A stretch of DNA of 35,219 nt from Ichthyobacteriaceae bacterium (lineage in GTDB: Bacteria > Bacteroidota > Bacteroidia > Flavobacteriales > JADGDT01): positions 1 to 35,219 of the forward strand of contig JAGLDK010000065.1 of assembly GCA_023145615.1 (NCBI GenBank), given 5' to 3'. The translations under genes and the position numbers were made by a program. Below are positions 1,750-35,219 of the stretch, one piece after another. Under the pieces are notes generated by a model. It did not search any database. It was not told the DNA's origin and worked only from the letters and a program-made list of their open reading frames with translations. Positions within the stretch are counted from its first letter, which is position 1. The number at the start of each line of letters is the position of its first letter.

Positions 1750-4700
1750 TTATTCTACAATTAGTCTTTTTGTTGATGTATTATTATTATCAACTATTTT
1801 AACAAAATAAATTCCTTTCGATAAATACGCATCTACATGTTCAATTTCGGAACTTAAATATTGTTGATGAACTAAATGTCCTAAAATTGAATATATACTC
1901 ATTTTTGCATCTCTACTTAAGTTTGTATTCTGAATTGTAAATGTTCCGTTTGCCGATGGATTTGGATACATTGTAAACATTTCGTTTGTTGATTCTTCGT
2001 TTACCTTTTGGTACAATGCTTTTTTTCCTGAAGCAGTACTTGTTGATAATTGAAGTGTTGGACGATCTTGAGCTGTTGCATCATCTTGTGCAGCTATATC
2101 CCAAAAATTATAATTTCCATTTTCGTTAGTATCAATACTTAATCTAATAAAAACAAAATCTCCAGTTTTAGCTCCGTTACTAATTTCAGTATTAATATAA
2201 TTTGCCAACTCCACTCCTACCGAACTCGAATACCTTCCGGCAGTTGGCAACAACTCTAAAATATTATTTTGTAAAGCAGTTGCATTATTATCAGTTCCAA
2301 ATGCTCCTGCAAAATAATCAGTTGATAAAACAGTTGAAGTATTTCGGTATGGTAAACCATACATATCAATATTATTATTTAAGTTTCCTCCACTTTGTAA
2401 TACTGTAAAATTAAATTTAGCCGAAGTAATATTTTCTCCAACTCCTAATTCAGGAATTTCGAAAGGAATAATTACCGAAATATTTTTATCACTTCCAATT
2501 CTATGAGTATGGTAGCCTACCCACTGCATACCACCATTGTTAAATACCGAATTATCGGTTGCCGAAGCATTTATTGTAATATCCGATACACTAACACCTC
2601 CGTTTTCTGCAACTTCAATATTTACAATTTTAGTATCAGTTAATTCTCCATCGTTTACAACAACCTCAACAGTATAATTTCCATTATCGCCATCAATAGT
2701 ATTAATATTTAAAACAGCAGTACCATTATTGTTATCAGTAATTGAAACAAATTCGGCTTCGGTTGAAATTGAAAAATGCAAATCGTTATTTTCGGCATCG
2801 GTAGCCGATATATTTACAGCAGTTTCGTTTCCTTCTTGTAAAAAAACATCAGCAATAAAATTAATAACCGGAGCAGTATTAGAAACTACATAAGAATTAT
2901 ACTCATAACATCCAGCATCAACAACACCTCCAGCAACTCTATTGTTTCCATCTAAATCTTTCGATAAAACACTAGTATTTACACCTGCATCAATAGCTAC
3001 ACTATTTTGTTTTAGGTGGAAATCGTTTCCAACATAATCAACAAAATATGATTTGTAGTTTTCGTAATTACTCTCATCAATATCAACATTATTTTCTATT
3101 AAAGAAGTTGACGAATAAGTCCAAGGAGTATAAACACCACAAATGTTATTTCTAATAATGTTATCAAAATTCTTCTCTCCAGTTTTTTTCTGAATAGTAA
3201 GCATAATTTTAGGCACCGCATTAGTATCGGTAAATAATGCACTTTGTACTACTGTATTATTCTGAACTCTACAATTACGAGCACCGTATAACGATATTCC
3301 GTGTTCTTTATTACTAACAACTAAGTTGTTTTCTACAATCCAACTATCAGCAAAACCATCGGTAATAATAATTCCTTGCAATAAAGTTCCTATTAAATTA
3401 TTGTTTTTAACAAAATCAGTAACCGGATCATCAAATATTTTAAAGGTATTATTTCTAACAACAATGTTCGAAATCATTCTATCTCCACCTAATTTATAAG
3501 ATTGAAAAAAGTCATCGTGCTGAATATTATAATCATCTACATAACAATCTCTAACCAAGTTGTTCTCATATACACCATAACTTCCTAAAGCACGAATTGC
3601 ATCTCCACAAAAGTTATCAATCAAGTTATTATTCATAACAGTGTTTATACCCTGAAACTCAACTCCGTGGTATATATTGTATATTTTAGTATTTACAAGA
3701 GTGTTATTATCTCCTCTGAACTGAAAACCACTTGCCGAATGCTCGTACCAATCGGCCTTTGTCCATGTTACCGAACTTTCTGCCGATTGCATTATACAAT
3801 TATCAACAGTAATGTATTCTGATTGATTATCAGTAAAAAATATTGGAGATGTTGTAGCAAAATTTCCACCAGTAGCATCAAACTTAATTCCTTTAAAAGT
3901 TACATTCTTTACATTAACAGCCTGAAACTTTGTAAAAACAGCTTCGTAATTATTAACAGCTTTAATGGTTATTCCTTCAGCAAAAATTTGATTTGCAAAA
4001 TATGCACTACCATGATGACCATTTAATAAATTAATAACATCGCCATCAACCAAATTTACATTTCCCCAATTTACAGTAGCAAATCCTGCAAAAGGATTCT
4101 CGAAACTTCCATCGTTTGAATTACTTCCATTTATAGGATCGCAATAATATCCTTCTCCTACTACAACAACAATACTTTTTGTTACCTCAACCGTAATAGT
4201 TTCGTTTGCCGTAAACTCTCCATCGTTTACAGTAAACACAATATTATTGTAAACTCCAATATTGCTATTATTAGGCGATAAAATTAAATTGGCAGTACCA
4301 TTTCCGTTATCGTTTAAAGTTGCAAAACTTGGCAAGTTATTTGCAGTAATACTTAAATCATCATTATCAACATCGGTAGCCGATATTAATATATTGTTAG
4401 TTAAATCTTCTTCTAAAGTTACATTTCCAATACTTAATAACACTGGCGGTGTATTAGTTACCACAACATCTTCTGTAACTGATACCGAAAAAGTTTTATT
4501 TACCGAAAGCTTACCGTCGGTTACTGAAATTTCAATATTGTTATAAGTACCATTATTACCCGATACTGGATTTAATTGCAAAGTTGCAGTTGAATTATTA
4601 TTATCAACCAAAGTTGCAAATACAGGTAAGTTGTTTGCTGTAAAAGTTAAATCATCATTATCGGCATCGGTTGCAGTAATTATAAAAGACTTACTCTCGC

Positions 4701-5403
4701 CTACCTTAATATTCTTGTTTTCAATTACCGATAAAACTGGTGCAGTGTTAATATTCTGAGTTTCTACACTAATATTTAAAACTGGCTTATTACCTTCTGT
4801 AGTACTGTTTGCAGAAGCAATATCCCAATAATTATAGTTCGACGAATTGCTTTCATCGAAACTTAATCTAATAAAAACATAATCTCCAGCTTTAGCACCA
4901 TTTGCATACTGCTGATTAATAAAATCAATAAGTTCAACACTGTTTGCTAATTTATAAGCTCCAACTATTGATTGATTATTTAAAAACGAAGATTTTATTA
5001 AAGTACTATTAGTGTTATCAAATTCTCCTGCATAAAAATCGGCAGTATTAACAGTGTTTGTAGTACTGTATGGTAAAGCATATAAATCAATACCATTATT
5101 TAGTTGAGTATTTGCACCCAAAATTGTAGTTGTAAAATCGGCAGAAACAACACTTTCGCCCGAAAGTAACTCAGGTAATTTAAAAGGAATAACAGCACAA
5201 GTATTTTTTGATGTACCAAGTCTGTGTAAATGATACCCTGCCCACTGCATTGATAAGTTATTACTAATTGCAACATCAGCTCCATCGGCAACAACAGTAA
5301 ATGTTTTATTCTGAGCAAAAGTAGTAGTTGTAATAAAAGATAAAAGCAACATCAGCATTAATCTATTGATTAATAACTGATAATGAGTATAATTTATTTT
5401 CAT
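1750..5403 (-). CDS. T9SS-exported surface protein: DNRLRE/CBM96-like module, two cadherin/Ig-like repeats, right-handed parallel beta-helix (DUF1565/PL-like), third Ig-like repeat, second DNRLRE-like module, type A sorting domain
   Basis: Signal peptide ...TTTFAQ; YYCDPINGSNSNDGSFENPFAGF start of a beta-helix domain with many N/V/I rungs; terminal MYPNPSANGTFTIQ...LSKGIYFVKIVDNNNTSTKRLIVE. Confidence 0.85.
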   Translation of the reverse strand: MKINYTHYQLLINRLMLMLLLSFITTTTFAQNKTFTVVADGADVAISNNLSMQWAGYHLHRLGTSKNTCAVIPFKLPELLSGESVVSADFTTTILGANTQLNNGIDLYALPYSTTNTVNTADFYAGEFDNTNSTLIKSSFLNNQSIVGAYKLANSVELIDFINQQYANGAKAGDYVFIRLSFDESNSSNYNYWDIASANSTTEGNKPVLNISVETQNINTAPVLSVIENKNIKVGESKSFIITATDADNDDLTFTANNLPVFATLVDNNNSTATLQLNPVSGNNGTYNNIEISVTDGKLSVNKTFSVSVTEDVVVTNTPPVLLSIGNVTLEEDLTNNILISATDVDNDDLSITANNLPSFATLNDNGNGTANLILSPNNSNIGVYNNIVFTVNDGEFTANETITVEVTKSIVVVVGEGYYCDPINGSNSNDGSFENPFAGFATVNWGNVNLVDGDVINLLNGHHGSAYFANQIFAEGITIKAVNNYEAVFTKFQAVNVKNVTFKGIKFDATGGNFATTSPIFFTDNQSEYITVDNCIMQSAESSVTWTKADWYEHSASGFQFRGDNNTLVNTKIYNIYHGVEFQGINTVMNNNLIDNFCGDAIRALGSYGVYENNLVRDCYVDDYNIQHDDFFQSYKLGGDRMISNIVVRNNTFKIFDDPVTDFVKNNNLIGTLLQGIIITDGFADSWIVENNLVVSNKEHGISLYGARNCRVQNNTVVQSALFTDTNAVPKIMLTIQKKTGEKNFDNIIRNNICGVYTPWTYSSTSLIENNVDIDESNYENYKSYFVDYVGNDFHLKQNSVAIDAGVNTSVLSKDLDGNNRVAGGVVDAGCYEYNSYVVSNTAPVINFIADVFLQEGNETAVNISATDAENNDLHFSISTEAEFVSITDNNNGTAVLNINTIDGDNGNYTVEVVVNDGELTDTKIVNIEVAENGGVSVSDITINASATDNSVFNNGGMQWVGYHTHRIGSDKNISVIIPFEIPELGVGENITSAKFNFTVLQSGGNLNNNIDMYGLPYRNTSTVLSTDYFAGAFGTDNNATALQNNILELLPTAGRYSSSVGVELANYINTEISNGAKTGDFVFIRLSIDTNENGNYNFWDIAAQDDATAQDRPTLQLSTSTASGKKALYQKVNEESTNEMFTMYPNPSANGTFTIQNTNLSRDAKMSIYSILGHLVHQQYLSSEIEHVDAYLSKGIYFVKIVDNNNTSTKRLIVE

Positions 5404-15149: not shown

Positions 15150-16706
15150 TTAAAAACGGTAACCAATAAAAAACATTATTTCAGATCCATTTACACTAAC
15201 AACGTTTCCTATAATTTCATCCGGAGTATTACCATAAGTTTCTTGAACATAATTACCAACATTAAACATATACTCAACACCCGTAATTATATGATTAAAA
15301 TTTGCCTCTATTCCAATAACTGGAGCAAAGCAATAATCTTGTCCTTTTTGATCAGCCTCTTTATACATACCCGTTAAAATTTCGGTATTATTTTTTATAG
15401 TCTGAAACTTTGCTTCGGCACCAACATAAGGATTTAAAACATCTTTTACTTTTAAGAACTTTGGATAATACAAAACACCAAGTTTATACTGAAGCATTGA
15501 TAATTTAAAGTTTTTAATAAGTATTTCTTCTCCGTTTTGCTCATCTATTTTAGATGAAAAATATGAAACTCCAAATCTTGCACGTAATTCCGTCATAATA
15601 TTTAACACAATATTTCCACCCCAAATTACATTTCCTCCTATTTCAGAACCAGTACCATTATTATCGGTAATATAATTATCTATAAAACCTAAATCCGGAC
15701 TGTAATATCCTGCACTTACATTTACGTTGTGCACATAAAACTTAAACAAAGACGAACCATTATTTATAGAATCCTTAATTTCCGAATTACCATCAGCATT
15801 TTCATTAATATCTAATACCGATTTAGTGTTTAAACTGTCATTATCAGATGTATATATAACAACTTTTTTACCGTTATTATCAAATTTATTAAACCCATTA
15901 TTTATACCCGTATTATTACCAGCATTGTTTTGGGTATTTACATCATTACTACCATTTTTTACAGATGTTTTATTATTATCATTATTTGAATATACATTAT
16001 TAGCATCGGTATTGTTTGGGGTATTTACATCATTACTTCTAGCATCGGTATTGTTTTGTTCATCTGAATAATTATTATTTACATTATTATTAGACGTATC
16101 GTTTTGGCTTACTTCATAACTATCATCATATACCGTATTATTATTTGAATAACCATCATTTCCCGATTCATTATTATTATCGTCATCTGAATTGTCATTA
16201 CTTCTACCTGAAGTATTTGTATTATCTACATTATTATTATAACTATTATTAACTCCACTATTTTCAGAATTATTATAGTTATTTTCTTCATCAGAAGAAC
16301 TATCATTTATACTAGTATTATTACCCGTATCATTTCGAGTATCTACATAATTTTCTTTGTTTTCCGATTCATCATAATCCGAATTGTTCTTATCATCAGT
16401 ATATCTATTATCAGATGTATTATCAGACGTATTACCATCTTTAATTACAATGTTATTTATTGAACCTTTTTTATTATTTAAATCATCATTACTGTTATTA
16501 GATGTTTTGTTATTTAATCCTATTTGCTTGTTATCAATGGCATTATTTTTATTAACATCATCGTCATCATCATAAAACCCGAATCTATTTTGAATATCTT
16601 GCAAAATTCCAGTATTTTGTGTTTCAGAGTCATTTTGTTGTTCATCCTGACAAGAAACTATCAACGACAGCAATATTATAAAGGCTGTTATATTTTTTAT
16701 TTTCAT
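15150..16706 (-). CDS. Lipoprotein with about 250-aa Asn/Asp/Ser-rich low-complexity region followed by an outer-membrane beta-barrel domain
   Basis: Lipobox LIVSCQDEQQ; N/D/S tract; C-terminal half VNVSAGYYSPDLG...FFIGYRF with terminal aromatic. Confidence 0.75.
   Translation of the reverse strand: MKIKNITAFIILLSLIVSCQDEQQNDSETQNTGILQDIQNRFGFYDDDDDVNKNNAIDNKQIGLNNKTSNNSNDDLNNKKGSINNIVIKDGNTSDNTSDNRYTDDKNNSDYDESENKENYVDTRNDTGNNTSINDSSSDEENNYNNSENSGVNNSYNNNVDNTNTSGRSNDNSDDDNNNESGNDGYSNNNTVYDDSYEVSQNDTSNNNVNNNYSDEQNNTDARSNDVNTPNNTDANNVYSNNDNNKTSVKNGSNDVNTQNNAGNNTGINNGFNKFDNNGKKVVIYTSDNDSLNTKSVLDINENADGNSEIKDSINNGSSLFKFYVHNVNVSAGYYSPDLGFIDNYITDNNGTGSEIGGNVIWGGNIVLNIMTELRARFGVSYFSSKIDEQNGEEILIKNFKLSMLQYKLGVLYYPKFLKVKDVLNPYVGAEAKFQTIKNNTEILTGMYKEADQKGQDYCFAPVIGIEANFNHIITGVEYMFNVGNYVQETYGNTPDEIIGNVVSVNGSEIMFFIGYRF
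15921..16058. repeat. Degenerate coding direct repeats in the Asn-rich region
   Basis: agcattgttttgggtatttacatcattact (15921-15950), agcatcggtattgtttggggtatttacatcattact (16002-16037), partial agcatcggtattgttttg (16041-16058). Confidence 0.7.
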
Positions 16707-16762: not shown

Positions 16763-17686
16763 TTAATTACCACTTCCACCTTCGTGCTTGTCTATACCAC
16801 AATTAATAAATGTTCCATAATCGGCATTTAAAGATGTATTAAACATCATACGACTTTCATGATACGATCTATAATAAATTGCCAAACAATATACTCTGAA
16901 TGAAGCAACTCTAGTTTTAAAGTATTCGTCATTTTCAAAATAAATACTATTACTATCTGTATATAATTCTTCATAATAGTATTCATGATAGAATTTATAA
17001 TATTCTTCGTATTTACTATCACATTCTTTATACCTATCGTATACAATTTTATAAGCATTATAAAAAGCTTGAATATTTCTGTAATAGGCATAGTAATAAT
17101 TATCATAGCACTCTGGAGTATAAGAACTATTTCCAACCGGAACTCCCACCGGAGCAATAAGTTTAACAATATCAGTTAATTCATATTCGAAACCTGTAGG
17201 CATAAATTCTACAAATTCATCATTTTCAAACATTGCTTCAGCCGCAGCTAAAAATGCTTCATTATGCAATTCTTCTGGTTCTTTAGTAAATCTTTCAGCA
17301 ACTATATTCAATATTTGTAAATCATTATTGTCCATTGATGAAAATTCATCCGACGATATATCGTACATATACGAAAGTATTTCTTTGTCATTCATCAAAT
17401 TATTAGCGTCTAAACCATCTAAAAACACAAGTAACTCATCATCCGCAATATCCTCGAAATCATCCATGAAATCTTCAACTTCAGGGGTAATTTCTCCCGA
17501 TTCAAAAACATCGTCAAGTAAAGAACTAACCTTTTCTACATTAGAAAAATCTACATTTTCTATAAATTCTTTTAATGGTTTCTCTAAAGGTATCACCTCC
17601 ACATTTTTTTTACAACTAGTAAAAACACTCAATAACACTATTGATGTTAATACAATAAAGCTTAGTAGAAAATTTTGTTTTCTCAT
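16763..17686 (-). CDS. Lipoprotein with acidic N-terminal region and Tyr-rich C-terminal region
   Basis: Lipobox VFTSCKKN; the last 118 residues contain 25 Tyr (by hand count) and 4 Cys. Confidence 0.75.
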   Translation of the reverse strand: MRKQNFLLSFIVLTSIVLLSVFTSCKKNVEVIPLEKPLKEFIENVDFSNVEKVSSLLDDVFESGEITPEVEDFMDDFEDIADDELLVFLDGLDANNLMNDKEILSYMYDISSDEFSSMDNNDLQILNIVAERFTKEPEELHNEAFLAAAEAMFENDEFVEFMPTGFEYELTDIVKLIAPVGVPVGNSSYTPECYDNYYYAYYRNIQAFYNAYKIVYDRYKECDSKYEEYYKFYHEYYYEELYTDSNSIYFENDEYFKTRVASFRVYCLAIYYRSYHESRMMFNTSLNADYGTFINCGIDKHEGGSGN

Positions 17687-17850: not shown

Positions 17851-19011
17851 TTATTTGTTAATTTGCTGTTCAATAAACAGTGGATTATTCCAATGTTCCG
17901 AACGATTTTGATTTGGTTTTATTTCATAACCCTTACCGTAGCTATTACCAGTAGTAGCACTATATTCCCAATCGAAATATTTAGGCAACCTTAACCTAAC
18001 CAAATTTCGTCTTCCAATTTTCTTTTTCGATAACGGTATTGCCACATGAAACCCTGCATTTAACTCTTCTTTTATTTCATTTTGAGAATACATTCCATAA
18101 AAGCCAAGTGTTACTTCTCCAAAATGCCTTGTTAAATCAAATCTTACACCATCATCGTTATTAAGAAAACGATGGTAGCCTAAATCAAACTGCAAATCGA
18201 AACGAGAATAGTAATACTGCATAACAACATTCCATGTTAGATAATTTAAATCTCCGGTTTGCCATTTATCACTATCATAAAACGACTTCCCCGTAATTCC
18301 GGTATTTATTATAAATGAGAAGTTTTTATTTATTGGTTTATTCAAAGTAAAATCTACACCATATCTATTATTACTAAAATTACCTGCTGTTATATTTCCG
18401 TACCAATTACTGGGCAACCTAAAATTCTGAGATAATGTTAAAAAACCAGGACGTACATAATCTTCCTCATAAGTATCATCAACATAAATAGGTAATATAA
18501 CCTGACCTGTTAGCATCATACCTTTCCAAAAACTAACTTCCATTGCAGGAGCTATATTAATCTGTATCTCATATATTTTACTTAATAATTTATTCTTTAA
18601 AATAAACTGCGGATACAAAACCAAATCTGTTTTATAAAACGATTTATTTTTCGGTTTTAACTCCTTAATTAAATTCCATTTTTCGTCATCAATATATTTT
18701 AAACTAACATTATTACTCTGCTTGTTTTCAACATTAAAATCAACCTGAAGCTCTGGAATACCTCTATCCATAATAAAAAGCTTATGTTGATTTAATGAAG
18801 TTGTATCTGAAATAATTTTCAATAACGATTTTATTCCGTTTACATTATATCTAAACAAATTATCTTCCGATGATATATACATTGTATTATCATGCTGATT
18901 TACTCTTATATTTTCGAAATCATTACTTTTAATTTCTTGTGCAAATACCTCAACAGAATACAACATAAAAAAATGCGTAATCATCAGTATAAAATTTAGT
19001 TGTTTACTCAT
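17851..19011 (-). CDS. YjbH C-terminal-half-like outer-membrane barrel protein (separate gene)
   Basis: Own signal peptide (...EVFAQ); small periplasmic-type domain, then barrel strands such as GNFSNNRYGVDF and AGFHVAIPLSKKK, resembling the second half of YjbH/GfcD. Confidence 0.6.
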   Translation of the reverse strand: MSKQLNFILMITHFFMLYSVEVFAQEIKSNDFENIRVNQHDNTMYISSEDNLFRYNVNGIKSLLKIISDTTSLNQHKLFIMDRGIPELQVDFNVENKQSNNVSLKYIDDEKWNLIKELKPKNKSFYKTDLVLYPQFILKNKLLSKIYEIQINIAPAMEVSFWKGMMLTGQVILPIYVDDTYEEDYVRPGFLTLSQNFRLPSNWYGNITAGNFSNNRYGVDFTLNKPINKNFSFIINTGITGKSFYDSDKWQTGDLNYLTWNVVMQYYYSRFDLQFDLGYHRFLNNDDGVRFDLTRHFGEVTLGFYGMYSQNEIKEELNAGFHVAIPLSKKKIGRRNLVRLRLPKYFDWEYSATTGNSYGKGYEIKPNQNRSEHWNNPLFIEQQINK

Positions 19012-19028
19012 AATACCTATAATTAAAA

Positions 19029-19823
19029 TTACATTTTAATACCTTCGGTTAATTCTACTTTCTTATTAACAGATACTTCATTTTTAGCAAACAACGAAAA
19101 CTTATATTGCAAACCAGCTGTAATATATTCTTGTTGATATAGTAAAGCGTGCAACTTAAAACCATTAAATATATTTAACGAAGCTCCAATATTTATATTC
19201 TGAGAATCGTATTCTGCAATAAACTCAAGCGATTTCCAATCTTTAGATTTTGCTCTAATTCCACCAAAAATACCATCTAACGAATTTCCACTAAACATAA
19301 AAGTAGTATACCACCCAAAAGTAGCTTCAACATTAAAATTATTAACATCAAATTTCTTTGTACCAGTAATGTACATTGATCTGTAATATTGATTGGAATG
19401 ATTCTTAATATTGTATTCTGATTTTTGTCTGAACTTAAAAAGGGTTGTCATTCCTGTTGATATAATATCATTTATTCCAACAGCTAAAGAAGGTGTATTA
19501 TCGTTTTCGTTAAGTATTTTAATTTTTGTAGATATAGATCTATCCTGATTAAAACTTCCATCAAATACTTTTAAAAAAGTTAAAGTATAAGCCACCTCAA
19601 TAAAAGGCAAGAAGGTTGCGTTTATGTAATAGTTACCTGAGTTATAAGAAAAAGCCTCAGGAGTAATTGCTTGTGGCAAAAAATTACCTCCAATCATAAA
19701 ATCTCCATCTTTATTAGTATCTGCCGATGGAATATTTAACAACCCAGTCATTCCTGATGTTGTTTGTGCATAAATACTTGGCACACTACACATTAGTAAA
19801 AAATAAAACATTTTATGTATCAT
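19029..19823 (-). CDS. YjbH N-terminal-half-like outer-membrane barrel protein
   Basis: TTSGMTGLLNIPSADTNKDGDFMIGGNF, DRSISTKIKILNENDNTPSLAVGINDIISTG match the YjbH domain start; signal peptide. Confidence 0.75.
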   Translation of the reverse strand: MIHKMFYFLLMCSVPSIYAQTTSGMTGLLNIPSADTNKDGDFMIGGNFLPQAITPEAFSYNSGNYYINATFLPFIEVAYTLTFLKVFDGSFNQDRSISTKIKILNENDNTPSLAVGINDIISTGMTTLFKFRQKSEYNIKNHSNQYYRSMYITGTKKFDVNNFNVEATFGWYTTFMFSGNSLDGIFGGIRAKSKDWKSLEFIAEYDSQNINIGASLNIFNGFKLHALLYQQEYITAGLQYKFSLFAKNEVSVNKKVELTEGIKM

Positions 19824-33061: not shown

Positions 33062-35219
33062 CTATTCAATAATTATACTTTTTGTAAAATATAAATCTCC
33101 TGTTTTAATCTTTAAAAAATATACACCTTCCGAAATCTTAGTATCTAAATTAAGAGTTAATCCGTGGTTATATTTTAAGTTTTCAGCACTATAAACAAGC
33201 TTACCCGATGTAGAGTAGATGTATGCGTTTATAATCTGTCCTTGATTAATATTATCGGAATGAATACTTACCGAACCATCAGTTACAGGATTAGGATAAA
33301 TATTTATATTAGAATTTTCTATATCATCTGTTGACAATCCACCTTTTTTTCCAAATCGGATAATTAAAGTTGGTGCTGGTGTTCCATTTTTTTCAGCTCC
33401 ATCGGCAGATGTTATAGTAGTTCTAGCATACTGACTATTGTTAACATCATTAGTACTTAAACGTAGTAATGCAAACTTACCCTCTGCTAATTCTTTATAT
33501 TGATTATTTAAATATTTAACAAGATTTAATTCTCCAGCAGACGAAGTATTTTGTATACCAAGTGCTGTTGTTTTATTTGCAAAATCTTCTTGTATTACAA
33601 AACTGTTATCATCGCCAGTAAAATCACCAGCATATCCATCGGTTACAAGAGTATTTCCTTTTTCACGAGCATCTAAACCAAATAGGTTTAATTTACCTGT
33701 ATCTGAAGAAGCATTTGTTTCGATATTAACCGAAAATTTAGCTTCAATAACAACCATTCCTTCAGGTGCTTCTGGCAAAAGAAAAGGAAAAACTGCCGAC
33801 ATTTGCTCTCCTGTTTTTGTATAACTTCCACCAGCAATTATGTTATCTCTGTTATTAGGATCAACGTAACTAAATAATGGAGAATAAACAGCCCCATCTA
33901 ATTTTGATGCAACTATAGTTTGTATTGAAGCATCAGCAATAACATTAAGGTTAAAACTTTCAACCGCATCGCTTACTCCGTTATTTGCTACAACAGTAAT
34001 ATTATACAATCCAGCTCTATAAAGCTCTGGAGAAAATTCTAAAGTTCCAGTATTATCTCCATTATCTTTAAAAACACCAAAATCAGGTAAATTCTGTACC
34101 GAAAAACTAATATCACTATTAGCTGTATTTTTTGCTGAAAATCCCACTTTCAACGTAGTTTCTTCTTGCATTTCCTTATTTTCTATTGGAGTAATAATTG
34201 CAGGATCGGCATCTTCAATACCTTTAACTACAACTTCTCCAGCATCTGGTACTGCATTTACTAACACATAATTACTACCTTCATGAGAAATCATATCAGC
34301 ATCAATACTCTTTCCGTTTTGAGTTGCCGAAACATTAACCCATGTATTACTTACTCTTAATTTTACAGTTAAAGCCTGGTTATAAACCGAATTTAACATT
34401 TCATCAGTTAAATTAAATTTTATTTCTGAAGACTTAACATCTGTAACATTAAGTTTATGTGTTGCGTATGATTGAGAGTACATAGCTACACTTGTATATC
34501 CACCAACCCAAAAATCAGCATTTTTAAGCTCCTGAAGTAATGCCTTAGCACCATCTTTATCGGCTTGAGTATGTAAACTATGAAAGTGTGTACTACCCCA
34601 ACCTCTGTAATAATTACTATTATATAATGTAGAAGTTTTATTAAGTAAAGCAGGTAAGTAAGTTTGTGGTGCTTTTACTATATGTGGACTTGATACAGAA
34701 TTTACATTTAAATAATTAACCGTATTAGCATTATTTAAAACACCCTTAGTACCACGTATTGATATAAATTGTTTACGAGCCTCAGCATCGTTACCTTCAC
34801 CAAAAGGATAAGCATAAGTTAAACACTTGCCTTTAGTAATTTCAGCATTAATTTTATTTTGAGTAGCTTGTAAACGTGCTAAATAATCAGCATCCGTTGG
34901 GTTTGATTCTCCGTCAGGAATAGCAGTTGTAGAATACCAGTTTCTATCGTCATGCCCCTGTACTTCGTTACCCAAAGCTTGAAGTTCTACAAACGTAGCC
35001 CAATCTTTTACATTGTATTTATCTTCAGCCTCAGTAATTACAAACCAAGTAAAACCGAAATCAAATTCTTCCTGCATATTTTTCCAAAAAGGAATATCAA
35101 CAACAGGGTTATCGTCAATAGTAACTGTAAAAGCCGATAATTTATCGTTTTTCCACAAACTAACATCAGCATCACCATGATTAGCCGGCCATTGCTTGTC
35201 TTTTACTTCAAATCTTGGA
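33062..35219 (-). CDS. Polysaccharide-deacetylase-like T9SS surface protein with Ig-like and DNRLRE-like modules; 5' end outside window
   Basis: Frame stays open to the window edge (PRFEVKDKQWPANHGDADVSLWKNDKLSAFTVTIDDN...); the listed start at 35158 is an internal TTG. C-terminus INIYPNPVTDGSVSIHS...ISEGVYFLKIKTGDLYFTKSIIIE. Confidence 0.82.
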   Translation of the reverse strand, partial: PRFEVKDKQWPANHGDADVSLWKNDKLSAFTVTIDDNPVVDIPFWKNMQEEFDFGFTWFVITEAEDKYNVKDWATFVELQALGNEVQGHDDRNWYSTTAIPDGESNPTDADYLARLQATQNKINAEITKGKCLTYAYPFGEGNDAEARKQFISIRGTKGVLNNANTVNYLNVNSVSSPHIVKAPQTYLPALLNKTSTLYNSNYYRGWGSTHFHSLHTQADKDGAKALLQELKNADFWVGGYTSVAMYSQSYATHKLNVTDVKSSEIKFNLTDEMLNSVYNQALTVKLRVSNTWVNVSATQNGKSIDADMISHEGSNYVLVNAVPDAGEVVVKGIEDADPAIITPIENKEMQEETTLKVGFSAKNTANSDISFSVQNLPDFGVFKDNGDNTGTLEFSPELYRAGLYNITVVANNGVSDAVESFNLNVIADASIQTIVASKLDGAVYSPLFSYVDPNNRDNIIAGGSYTKTGEQMSAVFPFLLPEAPEGMVVIEAKFSVNIETNASSDTGKLNLFGLDAREKGNTLVTDGYAGDFTGDDNSFVIQEDFANKTTALGIQNTSSAGELNLVKYLNNQYKELAEGKFALLRLSTNDVNNSQYARTTITSADGAEKNGTPAPTLIIRFGKKGGLSTDDIENSNINIYPNPVTDGSVSIHSDNINQGQIINAYIYSTSGKLVYSAENLKYNHGLTLNLDTKISEGVYFLKIKTGDLYFTKSIIIE

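Follow-up and report, generated by a model that had tools for sequence, protein, structure and literature searches.

The GfcD and YjbH proteins of Escherichia coli are single polypeptides in which a 12-stranded barrel is followed by an α/β middle domain and a 13-stranded barrel (PMC8592465; PMC11494523), and the homologues of GfcD have been described as the most numerous multi-barrel proteins of the outer membrane (PMC11494523). In simulations, the C-terminal barrel of GfcD displays a stable lateral gate, with lipid A tails leaving into the membrane (PMC11494523). Among the Bacteroidota, BT0292 and BT0293 of Bacteroides thetaiotaomicron are both already annotated as 'YjbH domain-containing' (PMC10434189), while Natarajan et al. 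(2015) described Bacteroides DUF3869 lipoproteins with His-rich C-termini that have DUF940 (YjbH) and OmpA-like neighbours (PMC4387736). The locus analysed here, in a 35,219-nucleotide stretch of an Ichthyobacteriaceae genome (hereafter the window), encodes the same succession of barrel, middle domain and barrel, but in two genes rather than one, and, unlike in the gfcABCD and yjbEFGH operons, the partner gene codes for a lipoprotein with a His-Gly tail. No Pfam family corresponding to YjbF/GfcB-like or YjbG/GfcC-like neighbours could be identified among the window proteins scanned, and no capsule genes were found in the window.

Two genes encode the halves of a YjbH protein

The two adjacent ORFs (Table 1) match opposite ends of the 658-position YjbH model (PF06082), YjbH-N at positions 3-106 (46.8 bits) and YjbH-MC at positions 479-619 (32.5 bits), both above the curated cut-off of 24 bits. 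In profile comparisons, the N family aligns to residues 29-268 and the C family to residues 314-685 of E. coli YjbH. The two products thus do not share one YjbH region and the second does have YjbH similarity, in agreement with an earlier note on the sequence, which had read the pair as two YjbH halves. No other ORFs in the genome match PF06082. The AlphaFold2 model of YjbH-N (pLDDT 68) contains 12 strands and has FapF among its best PDB matches, while that of YjbH-MC (pLDDT 82.9) consists of an α/β domain, 13 long strands and a C-terminal helix. It is thereby confirmed that the two genes represent the halves of YjbH/GfcD, and that the split point is located at the boundary between the N-terminal barrel and the middle domain. 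A sequencing frameshift, already considered unlikely in the earlier note, is countered by the signal peptide of the C-half and the different frames of the two ORFs. Frameshift or assembly artefacts can furthermore be rejected because the same split occurs in dozens of genomes, and because natural fusions contain a hydrophilic linker at the junction where the split C-half carries its signal peptide.

Table 1. Features of the window and small tailed proteins encoded at other loci
Feature	Locus	Coordinates	Strand	Basis or remark
YjbH-N, 264 aa, own signal peptide	window	19029..19823	-	PF06082, E. coli YjbH alignment, 12-strand model
YjbH-MC, 386 aa: signal peptide, periplasmic middle domain, C-terminal barrel	window	17851..19011	-	PF06082, YjbH alignment, AlphaFold2
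Intergenic gap, 17 bp, N stop TAA to C start ATG, frame changes	window	19012..19028	-	sequence
Middle (M) α/β domain, C-half residues 33-112	window	18676..18915	-	model secondary structure
C-terminal barrel, 13 long strands, C-half residues 127-352	window	17956..18633	-	model secondary structure
Lipoprotein, 307 aa, lipobox SCKKN, next gene after C-half	window	16763..17686	-	found by tail and position
Lipoprotein C-terminal tail H-E-G-G-S-G-N, residues 301-307	window	16766..16786	-	tail type recurrent at C-half loci
Possible further member: lipoprotein-like protein, 518 aa, C-terminal small β-barrel	window	15150..16706	-	weak similarity, position
Mini-lipoprotein directly after C-half, 41-42 aa	L161	4402-4530	-	signal peptide, lipobox, His-Gly tail
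Mini-lipoprotein directly after C-half, 41-42 aa	L165	264-392	-	signal peptide, lipobox, His-Gly tail
Mini-lipoprotein directly after C-half, 41-42 aa	L168	5643-5768	+	signal peptide, lipobox, His-Gly tail
Gly/Thr-tailed small partner protein	L067	8440-8745	-	
Gly/Thr-tailed small partner protein	L066	1407-1649	+	
Gly/Thr-tailed small partner protein	L174	2200-2451	+	

Split and fused YjbH genes in the Bacteroidota

When Bacteroidota homologues were surveyed for fused and split forms, 81/92 of the Bacteroidota-type C-halves collected were encoded by separate genes and 11/92 were fused to N; the tree of the 92 C-halves requires no fewer than three transitions between the two states. The earlier note had regarded the locus as a naturally split version of YjbH, which is supported by the boundary and by the co-occurrence of the halves; it is, however, no curiosity, as separation is the normal state in the Bacteroidota and fusion has occurred repeatedly. 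A 'rare split' can be discarded, since most of the Bacteroidota C-halves collected are separate from N. Across 396 genomes of the phylum, two-part YjbH matches are always located in two ORFs. The C-half is carried by 66/201 genomes of one large-genome Bacteroidota family (f24), and the f24 loci fetched comprise eleven fused genes, the remainder being split. Fused N+C proteins of 530-687 aa (L114-L124) are nested among split relatives within one Bacteroidota family. In 189/194 plasmid records with a YjbH match, mostly from Proteobacteria, at least 80% of YjbH is matched at a single site, as is expected of fused genes.

A strong N-half is present in 20/21 genomes with a C-half, often far from it, and such co-occurrence even in the absence of linkage is expected of partners. 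Genes for N-halves that do not adjoin a C-half (L042, L056-L060) are found in polysaccharide clusters with Wzc, OPX and sugar transferases, while the C-half is located elsewhere in the same genome. In another locus (L170, 4246-8752, minus strand), both the C-half and N-half genes are duplicated.

A His-Gly tail on lipoproteins encoded beside the C-half

The lipoprotein encoded next to YjbH-MC, for which no Pfam family, NCBIfam family or PDB relative was found, ends in KHEGGSGN. Proteins ending in a tail of the pattern H-[NDES]-x(0-1)-G-G, nearly always lipoproteins, are encoded no more than 3 kb from the C gene in 80/91 C-half loci, a count that is inflated by phylogenetic non-independence, with one family providing half of the tailed proteins. 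In favour of the association, most loci were retrieved via the barrel gene after the tail had been noticed. Four further loci (L150, L155, L163 and L164) encode a degenerate tail. The tail is absent even in degenerate form from 7/91 loci, of which two are of a diverged Rhodothermia type (L044 and L047), two contain a fused YjbH (L117 and L123), two are cut by contig ends (L091 and L103) and one retains only HNA (L092). Of the lipoprotein-like ORFs up to 3 kb from a C gene, 73/180 are tailed, vs 2/99 of those farther away (Fisher p ~1e-14, an optimistic value given the relatedness of the sequences). Tails at other C-halves include CHEGGGGE, CHNSGGG, CHNQGNGG, HDQGG..., GHSGGSAQ, THNGGGGG and similar strings, and no exact mention of the commonest strings in this context was encountered in the literature searched.

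With their tails removed, the tailed proteins fall into approximately eleven clusters between which no similarity is detectable. Among these are transthyretin/PEGA-like families, a helical family rich in Ala, and orphans, of which the window lipoprotein is one. Three loci that seemingly lack a partner encode lipoproteins of 41-42 aa (Table 1), which comprise little beyond a lipid anchor and the tail, that of L168 reading CKDDDEPIPVEQHDGGQIK after predicted cleavage. Proteins of this size are overlooked by the usual gene-length cut-offs. A tailed lipoprotein (CHDQGSGGTGG) located between C and N in L043 was likewise missed by automatic gene calling. Fused YjbH proteins also adjoin tailed lipoproteins. 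The tailed gene may precede N, follow C, lie between C and N or, in L090, be divergently oriented, and this variable gene order excludes a DNA-level overlap signal as the origin of the tail. The tailed 155-aa proteins of L114 and L115 (HGPGGHH) probably represent chance His-rich ends.

The 518-aa protein encoded beyond the window lipoprotein contains a long Asn/Asp-rich linker before its small C-terminal β-barrel. Its last 200 residues show weak similarity to small outer-membrane proteins encoded at L036 and L040, and the gene in the equivalent place in other loci is OmpA-like. The small proteobacterial partner proteins GfcA (ending ...GDGGSHNTSTTTSTTR), YjbE and a Paraburkholderia counterpart, encoded at L067, L066 and L174 (Table 1), have Gly-rich and Thr-rich C-terminal tails, which are possibly analogous to the His-Gly tail.

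The tails were scored as three subtypes, HxQG, HxGG and HGG..GGG, which require three changes on the C-half tree vs approximately 25 with shuffled labels. The HEGG subtype is restricted to the window, L037 and L039; the lipoprotein bodies of the latter two are unrelated to that of the window, while the C-halves of all three group together with a branch support of 85. Judged from these sequence comparisons, the tail subtype follows the barrel phylogeny rather than the lipoprotein body. A barrel that reads the tail would be expected to give rise to such a pattern, which suggests that the His-Gly tail may be recognised by the barrel.

Genomic context of the window

No convincing C-half was found in the other genomes of the same order (398 genomes); hits in G613, where the matching protein has 413 aa and an OmpA-like terminal part, and in G522 were weak and were rejected. 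Two genomes of the same genus lack the lipoprotein and harbor a different gene, coding for a product of 192-193 aa, beside the DUF3109 gene. On the tree, the C-halves nearest to that of the window derive from Chloroherpetonaceae-type and Bacteroidales genomes, suggesting that the module may have been gained horizontally. Composition is unremarkable, and a viral origin was dismissed after a scan against IMG/VR returned no match. Two large proteins of the window, encoded at 1750-5403 and 33062-35158 on the minus strand, have C-terminal sorting domains for type IX secretion (Por_Secre_tail).

Proposed function of the split YjbH system

The C-half is constantly accompanied by a gene for a tailed lipoprotein, which points to a lipoprotein as either substrate or subunit of the barrel. 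The combination of a barrel with a putative lateral gate and a lipoprotein that is constant only at its C-terminus further suggests export that proceeds tail-first, with sideways exit of the lipid. As such, we propose, with a probability of roughly 0.4, that the window encodes a split YjbH/GfcD system in which the C-half recognises the tail of the lipoprotein and exports the latter to the cell surface. The C-half, with its middle domain and 13-stranded barrel, would act together with the separately encoded N-barrel and would bind the C-terminal His-Gly tail of the lipoprotein encoded beside it. The lipoprotein would then cross the outer membrane tail-first, and its lipid anchor would exit sideways through the lateral gate of the barrel, leaving the protein on the cell surface. 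The analysis shows the split and its boundary, the distribution of split and fused forms, the co-occurrence of N and C, the link between barrel gene and tailed lipoprotein and the tracking of the barrel by the tail subtype; that the tail is recognised directly, that the lipoprotein is translocated and reaches the surface, and that the lateral gate is used in the process, is inferred. Against export of the lipoprotein stand the link of the E. coli family to polysaccharide and the frequent occurrence of Bacteroidota members in polysaccharide clusters (L036 and L042). The Bacteroidota, furthermore, already export surface lipoproteins by means of another signal (PMC5080379), which leaves no a priori need for a second route. 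The literature searched yielded no experiment that demonstrates lipoprotein export by any YjbH/GfcD protein. The wider proposal, that YjbH/GfcD double barrels, whether split or fused, constitute an undescribed route of lipoprotein surface export via an H-x-(Q)-G-G tail in the Bacteroidota and related phyla, is put forward more tentatively; if true, part of the YjbH family would be recast from polysaccharide exporter to protein translocon.

The tailed lipoprotein could, although this appears somewhat unlikely, be a periplasmic exporter subunit like GfcB, the tail of which plugs or gates the M domain or the barrel lumen while polysaccharide is the cargo. GfcB, itself a lipoprotein, and GfcC bind GfcD in E. 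coli (PMC8592465), several loci are situated in clusters for polysaccharide export that contain OPX, Wzc and sugar transferase genes, and a docking peptide would equally explain why the tail subtype tracks the barrel. A subunit is, however, expected to possess a conserved body, yet the bodies are unrelated and the mature size decreases to approximately 20 residues, and no polysaccharide genes are seen in either the Ignavibacteria C-half loci or the window. The suggestion in the earlier note that the pair possibly exports polysaccharide lacks support at this locus, Pfam revealing no polysaccharide genes among the main ORFs of the window.

A distinctly less probable function of the tail is that of a covalent glycan attachment site, with the lipoprotein providing the lipid by which a surface polysaccharide, exported by the YjbH barrels, is anchored. 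The 41-42 aa lipoproteins, being almost only anchor and tail, would suit such a role, GfcD has been modelled to release a lipid-anchored polysaccharide (PMC11494523), and glycosylation of Ser/Thr-rich GfcA prior to export by GfcD has been suggested (PMC8592465). Ser and Thr are, however, seldom found at a fixed site in the tail, the constant residues of which are H, N/D/E and G, and no transferase is constantly linked to the loci. That N and C are independent porins, associated with the lipoprotein through an unrelated shared role, such as that of a metal-binding or adhesive surface protein under common regulation, is very unlikely, for while N and C are often unlinked, with N located in polysaccharide clusters and pyrimidine genes adjoining C, and the His-rich C-terminus has been proposed to bind metal or the cell wall (PMC4387736), the near-constant co-occurrence of N and C and their repeated fusion argue for joint action, and the tail subtype tracks the barrel instead of the body.

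Comparison with known systems

Part of the association between the tail and YjbH neighbours is already known from Bacteroides, where the DUF3869 lipoproteins BVU_4064 (3kog) and BF1687 (3g3l) share the His-rich C-terminal segment and the DUF940 and OmpA-like neighbours (PMC4387736), and one tailed protein from the loci collected here matches structure 3g3l. That study is, however, restricted to transthyretin-like proteins of Bacteroides and does not include tails shared by unrelated bodies, the correspondence of tail and barrel, lipoproteins of minimal size or the split and fused states. No description of a phylum-wide tail on unrelated lipoproteins, of barrel tracking, of mini-lipoproteins or of switching between split and fused states was found, a weak absence given the partial coverage of the literature. 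A tail that is carried by unrelated lipoproteins and co-varies with the barrel provides a concrete substrate candidate for GfcD homologues, and a possible role for 3kog and 3g3l, Bacteroides lipoproteins of known structure to which no function has been assigned. As the halves are naturally separate, each barrel can be purified and deleted singly.

By analogy only, the proposed export of the lipoprotein resembles the Slam translocon, an outer-membrane barrel that moves lipoproteins to the surface (PMC9090332); a C-terminal tail conserved across unrelated cargo does not feature in the Slam description consulted (PMC9090332). The two barrel families are unrelated, both halves in the window being matched by PF06082 only, with DUF560 not reported. 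The export signal of Bacteroidota lipoproteins is N-terminal and located beside the lipidated cysteine. The His-Gly tail is comparable to this signal (PMC5080379) in that it is short and is carried by lipoproteins of the same phylum, but it is located at the extreme C-terminus and is tied to one barrel gene.
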